The position numbers were made by a program, and so were the translations under genes. The notes under the pieces are model-generated. The model was not told the DNA's origin. It did not search any database and worked only from the letters and a program-made list of their open reading frames with translations. From assembly GCF_030848395.1 (NCBI RefSeq), contig NZ_JAVDBT010000002.1, positions 1 to 64,000 of the forward strand: a stretch of DNA of 64,000 nucleotides, given 5' to 3'. This stretch comes from Pseudogemmobacter lacusdianii (GTDB lineage Bacteria; Pseudomonadota; Alphaproteobacteria; Rhodobacterales; Rhodobacteraceae). This document shows, piece after piece, positions 42 to 49,687 of the stretch (position 1 is the first letter of the stretch; each line of letters begins with the position of its first letter).

Positions 42-636
42 CACAAGAACGAGTCCTGACCCTAGGGTCCGGCAAGGACATATTCAGGGGCGAAATAAAC
101 TCACCAAAAGTCCTTAAGCCGAGCTTACGAGAAGAGCATAAACCGTCTCAAAGAAGCACAGTCATATAGCGAAAAACTGAGCGACCCCACCGCCCCTTAT
201 TATCGTATTAGGAAAACAGATGCGAGCATTATTTAGCGAACCACAACAAGGCAACACCACCGGCGCAATTCAAATTATTAATCTGCGGCATAACATTTAT
301 CGGCTTGACAATATTGGCTTGCGCGAAGTCTGGCCCGTTTGGAGCCACGCCAATGCGTCAAATGTAATGCCTCTCGCTGGCCAGCGACCGTAGGCAGATC
401 CGACGGCAACACTCGACGCACCGGCCACCAGCGCACCCCCACAAAGGGCACAATCTCCCCATGCCCAAAGCCCTGCCGCAGCCGCCTTAGCATTGCCATT
501 CTTGCCCGGCTTATCCCCTTTTTTCGGTCAAATTTTCGCCTTCTTCCTCCGGCTATCTCGATCAAACAACCCCGATGGTTGTGCTCATCATGCCGTTTCG
601 CGCTGTGAGCATCCCGAGCTGGAAAGATCTAGACGA
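42..636. other. 595-base intergenic region, no gene recognised
   Basis: This stretch has lower GC content and more stops than its surroundings. Two short opposing ORFs in 278-608 have no recognisable protein character and are treated as chance. A TTGACA hexamer at 305-310 has no convincing -10 partner. It probably holds the promoter and leader of the signalling operon that starts at 637, but I cannot point to a definite site. Confidence 0.5.
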
Positions 637-1566
637 ATGCGTATTCTGGCCGTCGATGATGACGCTGTATTCCTGATGCTGCTTCAGCATGTGCTTGGAT
701 CATTGGGCTACCGCGAACTGGTCTGCGTCAACTCGGGTGCCGAGGCGCTGGCCTTGCTGCGCGAGCCCGATCACGGTTTCGACTGCGTTCTTCTCGACAT
801 CGAAATGCCGGTTATGAACGGGATCGAATTGTGCCGGCGCATCCGCAACATGCCCGCCCATAAAGATCTGCCGATCGTGATGATCACGGCCATGACCTCG
901 ATCGACTATGTCGAGCCGGCCTTCCGCGCCGGGGCGAATGATTATGTGCATAAACCCATCAACCAGTTGGAGATGAACACCCGACTGGGCATGGTGAGCG
1001 TGCTGGTCGAAGAGCGTCTCCGCCGTCTCTTGCTGGAGACCCGGCTTTCTACAGATTTCGGCCTACCAACGCTGAACGTGCGCTTTGAGGATCCGATCAG
1101 CCTGACCGAAGCAGGTTCGGTGGTCGACTGGCTGGCTTTGGAGAATTACGCCCTGACCTTGGGGCGGCTGCGGCTTTCCGGCCATGATGTCATCGCCTTC
1201 CGGGTCACCAATGCTTTGGCGATCTTTGGGGCGACTGATAGCATCGGCTATATCGACACGATGGCCAATGTCGCCTCGGTGCTGGACAATGCGCTGCGCA
1301 GCGGCAATCACTTGATCGCCTTCGCGGGTGAGGGCGATTTCGTGGCGATGATCGATCATGCCGCTGGCCTTGATCCTGAAATGCTGCAAGATACGATTGA
1401 ACTTGCAATGGATCGGTACAAACAAGTGCATTCTGGTCTTGGCATTCCTCTGCCCCAGATCACCGTTGGGCGCCCCACACGTGCGGGGCTCTTCAACCGC
1501 ACCTCGGTCAGCCGCCTGTTCCACGATGCGCGTCAGAATGCGCGGGACAAGGTTACAATCAAATAA
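637..1566 (+). CDS. Response regulator: receiver plus degenerate GGDEF-like output domain
   Basis: A 309-residue cytoplasmic protein. Residues 1-125 are a complete receiver: acidic D7-D9, phospho-acceptor D54 in 'LLDIEMP', T84 and K106 in 'HKP'. Residues about 165-309 look like a GGDEF fold, but where the catalytic GGDEF should be there is GEGDF (231-235), so cyclase activity is unlikely. The ORF is open from 493, but the start was put at ATG 637 because the receiver begins there with MRILAVDD, exactly as in the paralogue at 5913-6887. It is followed directly by an Hpt gene and a histidine kinase, so a phosphorelay role is inferred. The output may act by protein contact or nucleotide binding. 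The receiver assignment is firm; the GGDEF-like reading rests on pattern recognition only. Confidence 0.85.
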   Translation: MRILAVDDDAVFLMLLQHVLGSLGYRELVCVNSGAEALALLREPDHGFDCVLLDIEMPVMNGIELCRRIRNMPAHKDLPIVMITAMTSIDYVEPAFRAGANDYVHKPINQLEMNTRLGMVSVLVEERLRRLLLETRLSTDFGLPTLNVRFEDPISLTEAGSVVDWLALENYALTLGRLRLSGHDVIAFRVTNALAIFGATDSIGYIDTMANVASVLDNALRSGNHLIAFAGEGDFVAMIDHAAGLDPEMLQDTIELAMDRYKQVHSGLGIPLPQITVGRPTRAGLFNRTSVSRLFHDARQNARDKVTIK

Positions 1567-1578
1567 TTGAGTGGTCCC

Positions 1579-1941
1579 ATGCTGCTTCTTGGCCCCCAAT
1601 ACGGCGTCTCGCAAACGCAATCGGATCCGCTGGCCCCCATTCGGCGGCGCTTTTTGACCACGGTTGATCAGCATTGCCAGGATGTCGCACAACTCATCCA
1701 AGACACCGCCGAACCGGCACTGAGCCGCGACGCATGGAATGACATTGGCCTCATCGCACACCGCGTTGCGGGCGTCGCTGCCACATTAGGCTTTGAAGAC
1801 CTCGGCCGCATCGCCGCCGAGCTTGACCAGAAGATCGGAACTGCCATGAAGGCAGAAAGGGTTGATTTGGCCGGATTAAGCGGCACAGTCGCCTTGTTTC
1901 AATCTCAGTTGCTCAAGGCGCAAGCCAAAACGGCAGACTGA
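1579..1941 (+). CDS. Free-standing Hpt phosphotransfer protein
   Basis: A small, mostly helical protein of 120 residues from ATG 1579 (124 from a TTG at 1567 that directly follows the stop of the previous gene). The Hpt signature is 'IAHRVAGVAATLG' with the candidate phosphorylated histidine at residue 61 from ATG 1579, followed by the usual helix 'LGRIAAELDQK'. Hpt proteins shuttle phosphate between receiver domains. The two kinases in this island carry no Hpt domain of their own, so this is the natural bridge between a receiver and the final response regulator. It is probably co-transcribed with the genes at 637 and 2019. The start codon is uncertain. Confidence 0.8.
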   Translation: MLLLGPQYGVSQTQSDPLAPIRRRFLTTVDQHCQDVAQLIQDTAEPALSRDAWNDIGLIAHRVAGVAATLGFEDLGRIAAELDQKIGTAMKAERVDLAGLSGTVALFQSQLLKAQAKTAD

Positions 1942-2018
1942 AGTCTTACGACAGGTCTAAACATTATGAAGACAGGCTCCGCGTCGGCCATCGCCCGACC
2001 TTTCTATAAGGGTGGGTC

Positions 2019-4184
2019 ATGCTGAACTGTTTCGAGATGTCACCCATCGACGGCTTGGCCGGGGTCACGCTGTTCTTCTGGTTGGGCATCGCCTTTCTGC
2101 TTTACTGGACGGCTAAGAGCTACTTCTTTGGCCGGACCTACTTTCTGATCTCGCTTCTGGCGATGCTCTATTGGCTGATCGCCGTCCTGATGGAGCTGAG
2201 CGCGTCTGAGCTTGAGTGCAAAGTCTTCTGGGCGAAATTCGCTTGGCCCGCGATTGTGCTTTTGCCAACGGCTTGGGCTTATTTTCTGGCCGATTATGCC
2301 CGCGGCACCACCACCACTGGCAAAAAGCTTCGGCTTGTGCCGCTGATCGGCGGGCCACTTCTGGCCGCAATCATGGTCTCCACCAATGATTTGCACCAGC
2401 TGTTCTATGCGCCGGGCACCGGGCTTTTCGTGACCGACGGCCGATTGATGGCCAATTTCGAACATGGGCCGCTGTTCTATCTTGTCTCGGCAATGATCTA
2501 TATCTCATTGGTGACGGCCATCGGCGTCACCGTGCGCGGTATTTTGCTGTCCTCCCCGCAACACCGCACCTTCTTCTTTGGCCTGCTCCTGGTCACCTTG
2601 GTGCCTGGCTTTGCCAATCTGCTGTACATCTTCTTTGGCATGACGTTGCAGGGCTTTGACCCAACGCCCTTCGCCTTCTCGGCCACTTTGATCATCCTTT
2701 CCCTGATGATCTTGCAAAACCGGCTCTTGGATGTGACGGCGATTGCGAAGGATTTGCTGTTCTACAACAGTGCCGATCCGGTGGTGGTGCTGGACCTTTA
2801 CGGCAAGCAAGTTGCTTGGAACCCGGCAGCCCGCGCCCTCTTCCTTGGCCGCGATCACGCCAAGGACACCCACGAGCTGCAAGATTACGTCACCGATGTC
2901 GTCGCCACCGGCGGTCGGCCGGAAACGCACACTCTGGCCATCGGCAACCGCTTCTACGACCCAGACCTGCTTGTGCTGAAACAGCCCTTTGGCACCGAGC
3001 GCCCCGAGATTGGCTGGCTGGTACGGCTACAAGATTCGACCGAGCGGCGCTTTCTCTCTGCCGCCCTGCAAACCGAGCGCGACTTTCTAGCACTGCTGAT
3101 GGAGACCAGCCTTTCGGGCATCATCGCCTTGGACATGCGCGGTATCATCATGTTCATGAACTCGGAAGCTGGGCGTATCTTGGGCATCGAGGGGCTACTG
3201 CTGCGCGAAGTGACTTTGGGCGATCCCGCTTGGGAGTTCCAAACCCCCGAAGGCGCGCCCGCAGCAGGGCTTGGCCATGCATTCGCGCGGCTCCTGGTGG
3301 ACCAAAAGCCGATCCGAAACCGCCGACTTTCGCTGTTGCGGCGCGGCGATGGCGAGCGGCGGATGATCTCGGTCAACGCCAACCTTTTGAATACGCCCGG
3401 CTCAGATGAGCGGGTGGTGATCTCGCTTGCCGATGTGACAGAGCAGCACCAGAACGAGCTGCGTCTGCATGCTCTGGTCGCGAAATCGGAATCGGAAAGC
3501 AAAAGTAAGACCCAGTTCATCGCCAATATGAGCCATGAGATCCGCACCCCCTTGAACGGGGTGCTGGGCATGGCCGAGGTCTTGGACCGGCTGGTCCATG
3601 ATGCCGAGCAAAAGAAGATGCTCTCGACGATTCGGCACTCGGGCGAGCTTTTGCTGAGCATTCTCAACGACGTGCTCGACATGTCCAAAATCGAAGCTGG
3701 CAAGCTTGAGCTGGAAGCAACCCTCTTCCGGCCCAGCCAAATTGCGGCACGGGTGCAAGAGCTTTACAGCGTATCGGCAGAAGAAAAGGGACTGGAGCTG
3801 GAAATCCTCACCAGCGGACGGCCCGACAATGCGCGCGTGGGTGACCCCCACCGCCTGATGCAGATCCTGCAGAACCTCATCAGCAACGCGATCAAATTCA
3901 CCGCCGAAGGTGAGATCTCGGTGATCTTCTCCTGCCCGCCCGGCAAGCCCTTGGTGATTGAAGTGCGCGACACCGGCATTGGCATGACCGAAGAGCAGCT
4001 TGGCCGGATTTTCAACGCCTTTGAGCAGGCCGACGGTTCGGTGACGCGCCGCTTTGGCGGCACCGGTCTGGGCATGTCGATCGTTGCCAAACTGGTCTCG
4101 ATCATGAATGGCCGGATCGAGGTGGAGAGTGAGCCGGATGTTGGCACCGCCATTCGCATTCACTTGCCGCTAGAAGAGGCCTAA
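2019..4184 (+). CDS. Membrane histidine kinase (7TM-type sensor, PAS, HisKA, HATPase)
   Basis: 721 residues. The first roughly 240 residues contain seven or more hydrophobic segments, matching the HisKA_7TM type of N-terminal sensor. One or two PAS-like regions follow (about 245-480), including 'NSADPVVVLDLYGKQVAWN' and a second 'LLMETSLSGIIALD' unit. The phosphorylated histidine is H506 in 'SHEIRTPLNG'. The ATPase domain has the N box 'NLISNAIKF' (N623), G1 'DTGIGM' (D651), an F box and a G2 'GGTGLGMS'. There is no fused receiver or Hpt, so it must signal through separate proteins, probably the adjacent ones. Its kinase core closely resembles that of the kinase at 6993-10271, which suggests duplication. 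A purine-rich AAGGGTGGG before ATG 2019 supports the start. Confidence 0.9.
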   Translation: MLNCFEMSPIDGLAGVTLFFWLGIAFLLYWTAKSYFFGRTYFLISLLAMLYWLIAVLMELSASELECKVFWAKFAWPAIVLLPTAWAYFLADYARGTTTTGKKLRLVPLIGGPLLAAIMVSTNDLHQLFYAPGTGLFVTDGRLMANFEHGPLFYLVSAMIYISLVTAIGVTVRGILLSSPQHRTFFFGLLLVTLVPGFANLLYIFFGMTLQGFDPTPFAFSATLIILSLMILQNRLLDVTAIAKDLLFYNSADPVVVLDLYGKQVAWNPAARALFLGRDHAKDTHELQDYVTDVVATGGRPETHTLAIGNRFYDPDLLVLKQPFGTERPEIGWLVRLQDSTERRFLSAALQTERDFLALLMETSLSGIIALDMRGIIMFMNSEAGRILGIEGLLLREVTLGDPAWEFQTPEGAPAAGLGHAFARLLVDQKPIRNRRLSLLRRGDGERRMISVNANLLNTPGSDERVVISLADVTEQHQNELRLHALVAKSESESKSKTQFIANMSHEIRTPLNGVLGMAEVLDRLVHDAEQKKMLSTIRHSGELLLSILNDVLDMSKIEAGKLELEATLFRPSQIAARVQELYSVSAEEKGLELEILTSGRPDNARVGDPHRLMQILQNLISNAIKFTAEGEISVIFSCPPGKPLVIEVRDTGIGMTEEQLGRIFNAFEQADGSVTRRFGGTGLGMSIVAKLVSIMNGRIEVESEPDVGTAIRIHLPLEEA

Positions 4185-4818: not shown

Positions 4819-5646
4819 TTATAGCACGGACGGTCGGAGCAACGTTAGGATCGCATGCATGAGATCCTTGCGCCGGAACGGCTTGGCCAAATGGGTGTCA
4901 AAACCAGCCACCAGATAATCGGCAACCTGATTAACCAGTGCATTTGCCGTAACGGCAATGGCGGGTGTAACCGCTCTGGATTGCTGCACTTCACCAGCGC
5001 GAATCTCGCGAATCGCGGTCACGCCATCCATCACCGGCATCGAGATATCCAGTAAAAGCAGATCGAAATTTGACTTCTGCCAAGCTTCGAGCGCCTCTTT
5101 GCCGTCATTCACGCTGACCAGCTCAGCCCGCGTGTCAGCCAGCATTTCTTCCAAAACCAAACGATTGGTCGGGCTGTCATCGGCAATCAAGATGCGGGTG
5201 CCCGCCAGGCTTGCCGTCTCTTCTTGCGAGGTCTCTTCCAGCTCAACCTGCATCAGTTCGGCATCCGCGAAGGGGAAGCTGAGCTTGACGGTATTTCCAC
5301 TAAGGCCATTGGATTGACTGAATGTTCCACCAAAACTTTCAATCAGGGACAGGGTTTCGGCATCAACCGATAGGGGCGCGGAACTTGCGGTAATATCGAT
5401 CATCACCGGCTTGCCAACCTTGGCGCTGAACTTCAGTCGCAGCGCACTATCGGCATCCGTGAATGGCGCATCGCCTATGATTTGAACGACGATCTTAGCC
5501 AGCGCATCCGGCTCACCCTCACGACCCTTTTCACACCCCAAGCTGCTAAAGGCTTCAAAGGTTGCGCCGACTGTTTCCGCTTCCGCCCCGAACCGAGATT
5601 CGATTTGGCGAAGGACATCAACCGGCCTGAAGGTGGTGGCGTTCAC
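4819..5646 (-). CDS. Receiver protein with a dead HATPase-like N-terminal domain
   Basis: About 275 residues from a proposed GTG at 5646; the frame is open to 5718, but those codons (TTG start, C/G runs) do not look coding. The N-terminal 125 residues follow the layout of the neighbouring kinases' ATPase domains ('TFRPVDVL', later 'GEPDALAKIVVQII' where the kinases have 'GDPHRL..IL.NLI', then a 'GKP' and a C-terminal beta strand). The N-box asparagine, the DTGIG loop and the glycine-rich G2 box are all lost, and there is no HisKA histidine domain. The C-terminal half is an intact receiver ('LLLDISMP', 'AKPF'). It looks like the tail of a hybrid kinase reduced to a receiver with a possible docking domain. 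No upstream frame encodes the missing part. Confidence 0.75.
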   Translation of the reverse strand: MNATTFRPVDVLRQIESRFGAEAETVGATFEAFSSLGCEKGREGEPDALAKIVVQIIGDAPFTDADSALRLKFSAKVGKPVMIDITASSAPLSVDAETLSLIESFGGTFSQSNGLSGNTVKLSFPFADAELMQVELEETSQEETASLAGTRILIADDSPTNRLVLEEMLADTRAELVSVNDGKEALEAWQKSNFDLLLLDISMPVMDGVTAIREIRAGEVQQSRAVTPAIAVTANALVNQVADYLVAGFDTHLAKPFRRKDLMHAILTLLRPSVL

Positions 5647-5667
5647 GTCTGGTCCATTCCGAAACTT

Positions 5668-5676
5668 CCCCCCCCC
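5668..5676. repeat. Nine-base C tract (G9 on the minus strand)
   Basis: A run of nine C on the plus strand, followed directly by GGGCCCC. It lies about 20 bases upstream of the proposed GTG start of the pseudo-kinase/receiver gene, on its 5' side. Homopolymers of this length are prone to slippage. Here it would change a leader or promoter spacing rather than a clear reading frame. Confidence 0.6.
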
Positions 5677-5912
5677 GGGCCCCTGCAAGTGCCCGGAAGA
5701 AAACCTAATCCTACACAATTAACCCATCACTGGCGCGCGAAATATACCATCTTTAGGCGGTGTGTTCCGCGTCGTGGAAAGGTAGGCTCGCAACAGAGCC
5801 CCCTAAAACACAGATGTAATTTAGCAGTGTTCAGAATGATTAAGCAACCATAAGCTGTATCACAGACGCATAATCTCTATTGAAACGCATCGCTTATTTA
5901 CATGCCCCAGCG

Positions 5913-45680: not shown

Positions 45681-47501
45681 TCAGAAGCGGTAATTCACCA
45701 TCAGATCCAGCCCCAGCGCCCCCTTCTCGCTTGCGCCAATCCCATCATAGCTGGTGTTCAGCATGACAGTCGCGCCATTGCCAAAATCCCGCGAGATGCC
45801 AAGGTCGAGCCGACCGCGCAGGCTGCTTTCCGACAGCCCGCCCGCCTTCTCCTTGGCATGGATCGCCGAAACACCACCCGAGATCCAGCCCATCCCCCGG
45901 CGAACCGTAAGCGGCGCTTCAAAGTCGATCCCGGCACTGGCCTCGGTCAGGCTCATCCCCCCGGCCGCAATCGTGTTACCCAGACTGTCCACATAGGACG
46001 GCCGGTCCTCGGCCACCCGCGCCAGATCCAACCTTGGCCGCAGCTTCAGCCGCTCCCGGCTGATCTCGCCCACCAATGATACGGTCAGGAGGTCGCGGTC
46101 ACTCGTCACGCTGTCGATATAGGTGCCAAGCGGGCTGATCTCGAGATCCACCTGCCCTGCCAGATATGAGGCCGACATCATAAGCCCGCTCTCACCAAGC
46201 CGCGCGACCACATAGGGGCCGGCCAGCCAGCCGTTGCCTTCAAGACTGCCGATGCCATCCTTCATCAGCCCCTGATCCATCTGCACCATCGCACCAAGGA
46301 TCAATCCGTCAAAGCGCAGCACATGCGCCCCCATCGCGCCATGCAGATAATGATCCAGCGCCGCGTCGCCATTGCCCCAGCGCCCACTCAGGATCATCCA
46401 GACCGATTTGTCGGGATCGGTGGCAATGTCAAAACTCAGCGCCGTGCCCTTGGTAGACACCGACAGCGCGCCGCCCTGCCCTGACAAGAACAGCGTCAAA
46501 TCGGGTTGCGAGGCCAAAAGCGCTTGGTTCCGCGCCAAGGCCTCATCCTGCAAAAGCTCCTCGGTCTCTTCCGTCGCGGCCAAAGGCACCACGACAGAAC
46601 TGGCCCCGAGGCTCTGGTTCCCGGCATTGTCCTGCGCCGCGCCCGCAGCCACGCTGATCTCAACGCTGCCCGTACCGGCAGCCTCGACGGTCACGCTATA
46701 AAGCGCATCCGCCCCGGAAAAGCCGGTGATCTCCCCATGTCTCACCACAATATCACTGGCGGTAAAGCCGGTGACCGGCTCGCTAAAGGTCAGATCCAGC
46801 GTGAAAGACCCACCCGCAGTGATCTCGGCCGGCATACCGGTCATGGTCAGGCTTGGCGCGTTCAGATCCGCGACGGTGATCGTCACCGTATCACTATGCT
46901 CCCCACCAGCCCCGTCCGAAACGGTCAGCGTAAAGACCAAACTCTCAGAGGCAACACCCATAGCCAGCGTCGGCGCTGTAAAGCTCGGGCTGCTGCTATC
47001 CGCCCCGGTCAACACCACCGCGGGCCCAGACTCTTGCACCCAAGAATAGCTCAGAACCTGCCACAGATCCGGATCGGTGGAGCCTGAACCATCCAAACTT
47101 ACCGCCGCACCCGAAGCGACGCCTGTCTGGTCCGGCCCAGCATCGGCGGTGGGCGCAGTATTAACCGCCACGGTAAAGCTTTGCTGCACCCGCTCTGCAT
47201 CGGCATAGACAGTATTGTCGCCCAGCTGATCGGCATTGATCACGCAGGTCCCGGCAGAGGTGAATGAGATATCCTCGCCAACAATCGCGCAAACCGCCGC
47301 CGCGCTGGCATCGATCGACAGTTGCACCGGATTTGCCGAACCGCCCCCGGTGGCTGCAACCCGATAGGGCAAGTCGCCCACCAAAGCAGGGTTTGGCGCC
47401 ACCGAGGTAAATTCAATCACCTGCGGCTGCTTGATGACTTGTATGGTCGGGGACAGCTTGCTTGAAGTATAGTAGTTCGCATTGTCGAACATCATAGCCA
47501 C
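45681..47501 (-). CDS. Surface protein, 3' part: Ig-like/PKD domains and autotransporter-like barrel
   Basis: 606 residues from the first ATG, but this is almost certainly not a separate gene: its frame is coding upstream from about 47577 and continues repeat 5 of the gene ending at 47543. In order: the end of repeat 5, one full Ig-like repeat ('VCAIVGEDISFTSAGTCVINAD'), a PKD-like domain ('APTADAGPDQTGVASGAAVSLDGSGSTDP'-type), an Ig-like unit ('LTFSEPVTGFTASDIVV') and about 250 residues of predicted beta strands ending in 'DLMVNYRF', typical of an outer-membrane barrel. With the 5' part it would be a secreted surface protein. No signal peptide of its own. Confidence 0.8.
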   Translation of the reverse strand: MAMMFDNANYYTSSKLSPTIQVIKQPQVIEFTSVAPNPALVGDLPYRVAATGGGSANPVQLSIDASAAAVCAIVGEDISFTSAGTCVINADQLGDNTVYADAERVQQSFTVAVNTAPTADAGPDQTGVASGAAVSLDGSGSTDPDLWQVLSYSWVQESGPAVVLTGADSSSPSFTAPTLAMGVASESLVFTLTVSDGAGGEHSDTVTITVADLNAPSLTMTGMPAEITAGGSFTLDLTFSEPVTGFTASDIVVRHGEITGFSGADALYSVTVEAAGTGSVEISVAAGAAQDNAGNQSLGASSVVVPLAATEETEELLQDEALARNQALLASQPDLTLFLSGQGGALSVSTKGTALSFDIATDPDKSVWMILSGRWGNGDAALDHYLHGAMGAHVLRFDGLILGAMVQMDQGLMKDGIGSLEGNGWLAGPYVVARLGESGLMMSASYLAGQVDLEISPLGTYIDSVTSDRDLLTVSLVGEISRERLKLRPRLDLARVAEDRPSYVDSLGNTIAAGGMSLTEASAGIDFEAPLTVRRGMGWISGGVSAIHAKEKAGGLSESSLRGRLDLGISRDFGNGATVMLNTSYDGIGASEKGALGLDLMVNYRF

Positions 47502-48700
47502 GAGATAGCAATCGCCCTCGGCTATAAATTTGATCTCATTGCCTAAGGCTGTGCAAACTTCAGTCGTGACGCTATCGAAAAAAAAACCGGCCTCATAGAG
47601 TGCGCACCGGTCATGCCCGGCGTAAATGGCTCACTATTCACAAAGACCTGTTTGGGCCAATTGCCGGGAAAGACAATCTCCTCTCCTCCCTTGCCAATGC
47701 TAAAGGTCTGAACGACCGGCTCGGCGGGAAGGTAATTCACACCGCCGGGCTGGTTTGCGTTCACCTCACAGGTGCCCGCCGCCAAGACCGTCGCCTGGCT
47801 CCCCAAGACCGAACATACCGCAGGCGAGGCTGAGGTGAATGTAACGCCTAGGCCAGAGGTCACGGTCGCGTTCAAGGGAACCACTTGGTTGGGCACAAAG
47901 CCAATAATGTCGGCTGGATCGCTGAAGACAATGGACTGCGCGGCCCGAGCGATCGTGAAACTTCGGGTCACGGGCTGGGCATCATTGTAGGCTTGATTGC
48001 CCGGCGCATCTGCAGTCACGCTACAGGTGCCGGCCGACACGATCAGCACAGCCTCCCCTAAAACGTTGCAAACCTCAGGCGTGGTCGAGACAAGTGCAAC
48101 CGGCAGACCTGAGCTTGAAGTCGCGATCAAACCAACCTCAAGGCCTACCGCATAGACGGTGTCCGTCGGCGCATTGAAGGTGATCTCTTGATCGGCCAGA
48201 CCAATCCCAAAGCTCTGGCTGGCCTCAGCCGCCGCATCATAATTCGTATCGCCCGCTTGGTTTGCCGTAACCGTGCAGGTGCCGCCCTGCAAAACCGTTG
48301 CCGTATCCCCGTCGACCGAACACACCGTTGGCGTGGTCGAGCTAAAGCTGACCCCCAGCCCCGAGGTTGCGGTTGCGTTTAGGGTCACCCTTTGGTTTGG
48401 CGTAAAGGCCGCGATATCTGCAGGATCGGTAAAGCTGATGCTTTGGCTGGCCTTTGCAATGTCAAAGCTTTGGCTGGTGGGCGTGGCAGCAGAGTATGAC
48501 CCATCGCCCTCCTGCTCTGCAGCAATCACACATTGGCCCGCCGCCAGTACAGTGGCCGTCGATCCGGTAACGCTACAGACAAGCGGCGTCTCAGAGCGAA
48601 ACCTGACCAGCAAGCCAGAGCTTGCCGTGGCCTCAAGCAGCACTTGCTGGTTCGGCACGAAAGCAGCGATATCACTGGGATCGGTGAAACTGATCTCCTG
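47160..48700 (-). repeat. Six tandem Ig-like protein repeats, about 85 residues each
   Basis: Repeat starts (minus strand) are 48700, 48445, 48190, 47938, 47683 and 47423. The spacings are 255, 255, 252, 255 and 260 bases. Each unit reads roughly 'QSISFTDPADIAAF..NQ.V.L.ATATSGLGV.F.S.TP.VCSV.G..ATVL.AGTC.V.A.Q.G...Y.AA....QSF.I', with two conserved cysteines (VCSV and GTC). Only the 260-base spacing is not a multiple of three, and it contains the T9 tract. Confidence 0.85.
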
Positions 48701-49687
48701 CGTGCCCTGATAGCTGAACGTCATGCCCGTCTGACTTGTGCCCTTCGGCGTTGTGACCAAAACGTCCACATGGGCTGGACTTCCGTCCAAGCGCGCCGGG
48801 GCCTGCGCCACGATCTCGGTGTCTGAGACCTGCCTAAAGCTGCCAGCATCCAGCGCCCCAAAGGTGACGCTTGATGCGCCTGTAAGCCTTCGTCCGGTGA
48901 TCGTCACCTCAGTCCCGCCTAGGACGCTGCCAGCGTTGGGCGATAAACTCTCAATGGCGGGCCCAGCGTTATAATGCGCGATGACCCAGCTTGAACTCTC
49001 GTTCATATCTCCCCCGGGGCCAAACACAGCCCCCTTAGGAAGACCGATCACGATCATCCCGCTTTCGGTCATGCCGGTCAGTGTAAGCACATATGAACTG
49101 CCTGAACCGCTCAAATGTCGGGTCAACGCGTCGACATCATGGATGTTCGAAATGTCGAAAGCCTCACCGTCCAACCCGCCGACATCTTCACTGAAGGTAA
49201 CATCGAAGATCAAACTCTCGCCAACTTGCGGCCGTGGCACGACCGTCACCGTCAGCTTTTTCTTGACGATATGGGCTGAGCCTGTGGCCATCTGCACCAT
49301 ACAATCGCCCTTCGCATTATAGTCGGCACTCGGCATATGCGTGCCTTCCGACAGGTCACTGATCTTAAAGCTCGCTCTTCCTGTTGCGCTGCCCTCCGCG
49401 TCGGGAACCAACTCCACCTCCTCGAAATGGGTCCCTAATCTCAGCAAAACGGTGCCGCGCGGCATCAAGCCAAAGTTGCATCCAAGCGAGGTACTTACGG
49501 CCAGAACCGTCACCTCCTGCCCTGGCGTCGAGGGGTTGGGATAGGTGGTTACTGTGAGGGAGTTATTGACCTCGACCTGCGCATAAACAATGCGCGGAAC
49601 CAAGGCTAATGCAATGAAAATGCTAAATGAAATAAATATCAGAGCATAAGATATGTCGCGAAATGCCGAAAGAAATCCATGACGCAT
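47543..49687 (-). CDS. Surface protein, 5' part: signal peptide, TIG domain and Ig-like repeats (frame ends early)
   Basis: 714 residues from ATG 49687 (signal peptide 'ALIFISFSIFIALALVPRIVYAQ', cleavage after about residue 37); an upstream TTG/ATG at 49750 would put extra residues before the signal. Then beta-rich regions, an Ig-like unit ('LIFDVTFSEDVGGLDG'), an IPT/TIG domain ('PAIESLSPNAGSVLGGTEVTITG') and four and a half repeats. The last residues after 'MRPVFF' (SIASRLKFAQP) are out of frame with the repeat pattern. If the frame were restored, the gene 45681-49687 would encode about 1335 residues: a repeat-containing autotransporter-like adhesin. It may be phase-variable, decayed or mis-sequenced. 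Confidence 0.85.
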   Translation of the reverse strand: MRHGFLSAFRDISYALIFISFSIFIALALVPRIVYAQVEVNNSLTVTTYPNPSTPGQEVTVLAVSTSLGCNFGLMPRGTVLLRLGTHFEEVELVPDAEGSATGRASFKISDLSEGTHMPSADYNAKGDCMVQMATGSAHIVKKKLTVTVVPRPQVGESLIFDVTFSEDVGGLDGEAFDISNIHDVDALTRHLSGSGSSYVLTLTGMTESGMIVIGLPKGAVFGPGGDMNESSSWVIAHYNAGPAIESLSPNAGSVLGGTEVTITGRRLTGASSVTFGALDAGSFRQVSDTEIVAQAPARLDGSPAHVDVLVTTPKGTSQTGMTFSYQGTQEISFTDPSDIAAFVPNQQVLLEATASSGLLVRFRSETPLVCSVTGSTATVLAAGQCVIAAEQEGDGSYSAATPTSQSFDIAKASQSISFTDPADIAAFTPNQRVTLNATATSGLGVSFSSTTPTVCSVDGDTATVLQGGTCTVTANQAGDTNYDAAAEASQSFGIGLADQEITFNAPTDTVYAVGLEVGLIATSSSGLPVALVSTTPEVCNVLGEAVLIVSAGTCSVTADAPGNQAYNDAQPVTRSFTIARAAQSIVFSDPADIIGFVPNQVVPLNATVTSGLGVTFTSASPAVCSVLGSQATVLAAGTCEVNANQPGGVNYLPAEPVVQTFSIGKGGEEIVFPGNWPKQVFVNSEPFTPGMTGAHSMRPVFFSIASRLKFAQP
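47578..47586. repeat. A9 tract (T9 in the coding strand) at the frame break
   Basis: Nine T in the coding strand within repeat 5. In the present frame the protein runs into a stop 15 codons later. Ten or seven T would join it to the downstream frame and give a 255-like spacing (261 or 258 bases). Confidence 0.85.

Follow-up and report, generated by a model that had tools for sequence, protein, structure and literature searches.

A gene of the autotransporter type split between two reading frames at a nine-T tract in Pseudogemmobacter lacusdianii

The window analyzed here, a 64,000-nucleotide stretch of Pseudogemmobacter lacusdianii (contig NZ_JAVDBT010000002.1), carries on its minus strand, at positions 49687-45681, a single gene that is split over two reading frames. 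The junction between the frames is a tract of nine T (T9, 47578-47586), located in the fifth of six repeats. This is one coding sequence, interrupted inside a repeat where its one long homopolymer lies, and the kind of phenomenon is already known. The most likely cause, which we put forward tentatively, is slipped-strand mispairing at T9, acting as a reversible ON/OFF switch; a fresh pseudogene comes close to it in odds. The first-pass annotation of this DNA had named phase variation, transcriptional slippage, a pseudogene and a base-calling error as possible causes. The list was the right one, and the evidence for each cause is weighed below.

The upstream frame starts with an ATG at 49687 and ends at a stop at 47545-47543, 33 bases past T9, with no interruption between. 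The downstream frame is free of stops from 47630 to its stop at 45681. The final downstream-frame stop ahead of the tract starts at 47633, while the earliest upstream-frame stop is at 47545, and therefore the frame change is confined to the 85 bases 47630-47546, which contain T9. The shift from one frame to the other is of one base, in the -1 sense, in agreement with the earlier frame arithmetic based on a single T, and the nine T previously placed at 47578-47586 are indeed present when the minus strand is read. T9 is the sole run longer than six in the 4007-base gene, the next longest run being of exactly six. No further stop interrupts the ~630 downstream codons, and the ~1330 codons of the gene contain neither another stop nor another frame change. 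The base composition changes register together with the frame: before the tract, the G+C content by codon position (0.56, 0.51 and 0.65 for the first, second and third positions, respectively) tracks the upstream frame, and after it (0.62, 0.50 and 0.71) the downstream frame.

The repeats lead to the same junction. They start at 48700, 48445, 48190, 47938, 47683 and 47423, and these starts and the spacings between them are as first described. A hidden Markov model (HMM) of repeats 1-4 matched the downstream frame at profile positions 34-80 from base 47579, that is, from inside T9 (independent E-value 3.9e-5), confirming the initial observation that both frames carry the repeat pattern. The same HMM matched repeat 6 with an E-value of 2e-12 and found no segment better than E = 1 in the third frame. 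This HMM does not score the front of repeat 5, which has diverged too far and was placed by position and by eye. Two overlapping separate genes were considered as an explanation and rejected, as repeat 5 is common to both frames. As composition, T9 in itself is unremarkable: when the window was shuffled by dinucleotides, 34 of 100 versions contained a T9, and among 5000 codon-randomised copies of the protein 6.1% had an A/T run of at least nine. What is remarkable is its position at the frame change.

The upstream frame (47543-49687; this and all following features of the gene are on the minus strand) encodes a probable Sec signal peptide of 36 residues, ending at VYA/QVE (49580-49687, by eye from the translation), an N-terminal region with a weak Big_3_5 match, an IPT/TIG domain (PF01833, 48710-48961, E = 8e-12), repeats 1-4, and the front of repeat 5. 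The downstream frame (45681-47630) continues with the back of repeat 5, repeat 6, a K319L-like PKD domain (PF22352, 46872-47141, E = 6.9e-16), a Big_12 bacterial immunoglobulin-like (Ig-like) domain (PF19078, 46596-46868, E = 2.5e-12), and an autotransporter-type translocator (45684-46571) comprised of an N-terminal helix and a 12-strand outer-membrane barrel with a terminal Phe. The six Ig-like repeats of ~85 residues with a conserved cysteine pair are found at 48446-48700, 48191-48445, 47939-48190, 47684-47938, 47424-47683 (repeat 5, divided between the frames), and 47166-47423. Repeat 2 was modelled as an Ig-like beta sandwich with a predicted local distance difference test score (pLDDT) of 93.3. 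The PDB matches of this model are weak, the best one (E = 3.5e-3) being a mycobacteriophage capsid protein, and further matches include Big_2, intimin, and cadherin domains.

The last 296 residues were modelled with AlphaFold2 from 29 sequences as a helix followed by a barrel (pLDDT 91.6, predicted template modelling score 0.86), in which 12 long strands were counted. The 18 best PDB matches of the barrel model are all autotransporter translocators, ahead of porins and receptors. The matches include EspP, BrkA, Hbp, EstA, AaaA, NalP, and AIDA-I, some of them within BAM complexes, with template modelling scores of only ~0.4-0.6. The terminal residue, F296, is invariant in the 29 sequences; a terminal aromatic residue is important for such barrels. 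The Pfam Autotransporter model PF03797, which serves for detection and does not strictly define type Va, leaves the window barrel unmatched at E ≤ 1 and matches above its cut-off (44.5 bits) the barrel of a paralogue encoded in the same genome, the two barrels being 36% identical. Products annotated for plasmid relatives include 'autotransporter domain-containing' and 'Ig-like domain-containing' proteins. The structural model supports the assignment of the locus to genes of the classical (type Va) autotransporter type, and the original description of a large repeat/autotransporter surface protein is borne out by the domain matches, the barrel model, its PDB matches, and the survey of barrel open reading frames (ORFs) given below. 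However, the signal peptide (recognized by eye), the passenger, and the barrel are not in one polypeptide as sequenced: the start is in the upstream frame and the barrel in the downstream one. Therefore, we speak of a gene of the autotransporter type and not of an intact member. The anchor cannot be made by ordinary translation of the sequenced form. The idea that the downstream half is expressed on its own was not adopted, as its start does not show a recognizable signal peptide. A promoter scan yielded none in the region, where 1.7 would be expected by chance, and hence says little.

If slipped-strand mispairing operates at T9, the gene would alternate between two forms. In the ON form, the signal peptide would lead an Ig-like stalk of the adhesin type, presumably adhesive in function, into the periplasm, and the barrel, predicted to have 12 strands, would insert in the outer membrane and expose the stalk to the outside of the cell. 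In the OFF form, which is the one sequenced, translation would run into the one-base frame error at T9 and end 33 bases on, before the barrel; the stalk, if exported, would remain unanchored. Slippage at T9 during replication would shift the frame, and the same process could restore it, both the cause and the reversibility being our supposition. The population would then hold both ON and OFF cells, a bet-hedging of surface display. OFF cells might also make some in-frame mRNA through slippage of RNA polymerase on T9.

The state of the downstream half is in line with this proposal, as ~630 codons with no further stop are to be expected for a recent or intermittent break. Further evidence comes from the genome-wide survey of runs, which supports a slippage-prone site. 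The genome has nine distinct A/T runs of at least nine bases (12 overlapping matches); eight of them are outside coding sequence and T9 is the only coding one, the coding status having been read from ORF maps without gene calls. There are also 16 distinct G runs of at least nine, and one of the four that reach at least ten bases is a G10 that precedes the ATG of the paralogous autotransporter by 60-69 bases. The uniqueness of T9 among coding A/T runs and the G10 before the paralogue fit slippage switching. Overall, two of the three autotransporters found in the genome are marked by one of its longest runs; this link was spotted after the fact, and hence we give no p-value.

The paralogue is itself intact (locus L073 on contig C26, gene at 555-2213, minus strand, G10 at 2273-2282). 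The ends of its contig overlap by 63 bases and therefore form a circle of 6326 bases, a small plasmid, which carries relaxase-like and replication-like ORFs, named by eye. To our knowledge, no autotransporter has been described on so small a plasmid. Two other runs were noted in passing. In the window, a G9 on the minus strand (5668-5676) closely precedes the likely start of a receiver-domain protein encoded on the same strand (4819-5718, name by eye). A run of 12 bases (L125 2512-2523, contig C14:4011-4022), the longest one of G/C seen in this genome, follows the 3' end of a minus-strand ORF (L125:2559-3236) at a distance of ~35 bases.

Related genes were surveyed at 47 loci, own paralogue included and the window gene excluded. 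One locus (L226), which yielded no barrel hit, was removed, leaving 46 barrel ORFs; the survey did not take in genomes with domain-only matches (G106, G153, G318, and G416). Among the 46, thirteen hit a contig or locus end and were scanned as far as the sequence extends, while 33 have 5' context. A single frame with a signal-peptide-like start was found in 27 of these 33, by a scripted rule in 24 and by eye in three (L082, L040, and L231). The remaining six are frameshifted, truncated or doubtful. Two of them, L230 and L212, have a frameshift that, judged by eye, lies apart from any long run, and L228, L229, L038, and L219 have no recognisable start or are cut. G/C runs of at least eight are present in only two of the 46 ORFs; both are nine long, in frame, and come from the same genome, G120 (the autotransporter ORFs L078 and L213, with nine-G or nine-C coding runs). 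Upstream of the ORFs with a signal peptide by the scripted rule, the only ones checked for this, own paralogue alone has a run. A search for homopolymer enrichment across this family of autotransporter genes was negative, with no A/T run and two G/C runs of at least eight in 46 ORFs. A homologue of the same architecture in G120 was also tried as a single-frame control and rejected, since its signal peptide is in another frame, making it another broken gene. At 1504-5996 of L212, from the same genome, there is a related autotransporter of ~1500 codons, whose signal-peptide frame differs from the main frame and whose break is off long runs.

Several of these results weigh against slipped-strand switching. 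None of the 46 other barrel ORFs, own paralogue included, has an A/T run of at least eight, and therefore the tract is not a family trait. The six broken or doubtful genes among 33 mean that decay is common in these genes and needs no tract; in this respect, the survey of relatives supports plain decay. The third autotransporter of the genome (contig C16) is encoded in one frame of 1642 codons with no run of at least seven. The shuffles and the codon randomisation demonstrate that a T9 can arise by chance. Finally, the phase-variable autotransporter tracts described in the papers cited here are formed by G or C, not T (PMC1891110, PMC3723659, PMC7168839), and a literature search aimed at poly-T cases listed one paper.

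Accordingly, a plain recent pseudogene is a serious competitor, with a probability of perhaps one chance in three. Here, an indel in the homopolymer would have inactivated a dispensable accessory gene that is now drifting, and the tract would simply be the place where indels are commonest. The distribution of the gene agrees with this. It has no orthologue in 12 congeners, where matches come from a single genome, G006, and are domain-only: the upstream half matches with E = 3.1e-5 and 31% identity, and the PKD region of the downstream half with E = 1.5e-15 and 49% identity. The adjacent peptidase, which shares 81% identity with its counterpart in Rhodobacter sp. SGA-6-6 and 70% with the one in Xinfangfangia pollutisoli, is present in five of the 12 congeners, with no autotransporter within ~10 kb downstream of it. 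In 394 genomes of the family, the downstream half has matches at E = 1e-10 in at least 44, own included and some domain-only; this may be an undercount, as at most three first-look candidates were scored in most genomes. The upstream half has matches at E = 1e-8 in two of the 394, again own included. A scan of the genome contigs with the downstream half yielded no relative, and in the plasmid collection all homologues are less than 60% identical, with no near DNA match. Judged by these comparisons of sequences, the split gene is accessory. Relatives also decay, six of the 33 being frameshifted, truncated or doubtful and two of these having frameshifts that by eye are away from long runs; a parallel has been published for Campylobacter autotransporters (PMC7168839). 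In addition, repeat 5 is the lowest-scoring repeat and is located in a local dip of G+C content. On the other hand, there is no second stop or frame change, coding composition is kept in both halves, and the break coincides with the one slippage-prone run of the gene.

A third possibility, which we consider rather improbable, is regular transcriptional slippage or -1 ribosomal frameshifting, yielding a full-length minority product with the DNA unchanged. The T TTT TTT of the tract sits in the -1 register of the upstream frame, that is, the right register for such a shift, and A/T runs of at least nine are nearly absent from the coding sequence of this genome. Nine A or T have been reported as a threshold of avoidance in many bacterial genomes, with some genes using such runs (PMC1088944). 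In particular, the 'pseudo pseudogenes' described there resemble our gene in a break at exactly nine A or T, a continuation in another frame, and single-frame homologues; a gene whose frameshift lengthens a run from eight to nine should, according to the same source, still give intact mRNA. In another case, transcriptional slippage on an A11 run rescues the split tssM gene (PMC4256274). However, 'pseudo pseudogenes' are defined by expected transcriptional slippage, and the sharp threshold is described as evident only in AT-rich genomes (PMC1088944), whereas the G+C content of the window is 61%. Moreover, the run is not conserved in relatives, giving no sign of selection for recoding, and the 98 bases 3' of the tract have no unusual RNA structure (fold z-score -0.97).

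The least probable of the four causes is an assembly or base-calling error, with a true tract of a different length and an intact gene. Homopolymers are a usual place for indel errors, and the draft genome comprises 49 contigs with a total length of 3.78 Mb; still, it is scored as 99.99% complete, and runs of 6-7 inside long reading frames of the window leave those frames uninterrupted. Singleton frameshifts elsewhere have been ascribed to likely indel mutations or sequencing errors (PMC3711429).

Returning to slipped-strand mispairing at T9, its closest precedent, by analogy, is bapC of Bordetella pertussis. It is also an autotransporter gene with an out-of-frame homopolymer inside the coding sequence of the reference genome, and the length of the tract is reported to vary within cultures (PMC1891110). 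The difference is that the bapC tract is a poly-G near the 5' end with variation demonstrated in cultures, while here we have a T9 in the middle of the passenger in one genome. NalP and MspA of Neisseria meningitidis are likewise autotransporters whose ON or OFF state is set by homopolymers in the coding sequence. These are poly-C tracts of 6-15 bases in nalP and 6-14 bases in mspA, described for 641 isolates of a human commensal and pathogen (PMC3723659), as opposed to a single genome from what seems to be, by inference, an environmental member of Rhodobacteraceae. In Campylobacter, the capC tract is upstream of the gene and the capD tract is in the coding sequence, an arrangement similar to that of the two genes considered here, and decay is also common; however, both tracts are poly-G, and the inactivation of capC is attributed to decay and not to the tract (PMC7168839). 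In split pilin genes of Bifidobacterium breve, a homopolymer also leaves the secretion signal and the anchor motif in two ORFs, although in that case the tract is formed by G, the proteins are sortase-anchored, the bacterium is Gram-positive, and the lengths come from deep sequencing (PMC9187656).

A broader reading, which we regard as doubtful, is that this environmental member of Rhodobacteraceae may, like mucosal pathogens, use homopolymers as contingency switches of its autotransporters, with T9 in the chromosomal gene controlling translation of the anchor and the plasmid G10 controlling transcription of the paralogue, so that individual cells would differ in their surface and one of the switches would be transferable. 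In the open-licence literature, searched by titles and openings of abstracts, the matches listed include no tract-based switching in Rhodobacteraceae, Rhodobacterales, Roseobacter, or alphaproteobacteria. If the tract is fixed, the gene would be a clean case of a fresh break at a homopolymer, easily annotated as two separate genes. If, on the contrary, its length differs among the cells of one culture, an environmental alphaproteobacterium would have a surface switch based on a tract, which would indicate that bet-hedging in the display of adhesins serves more than immune escape.

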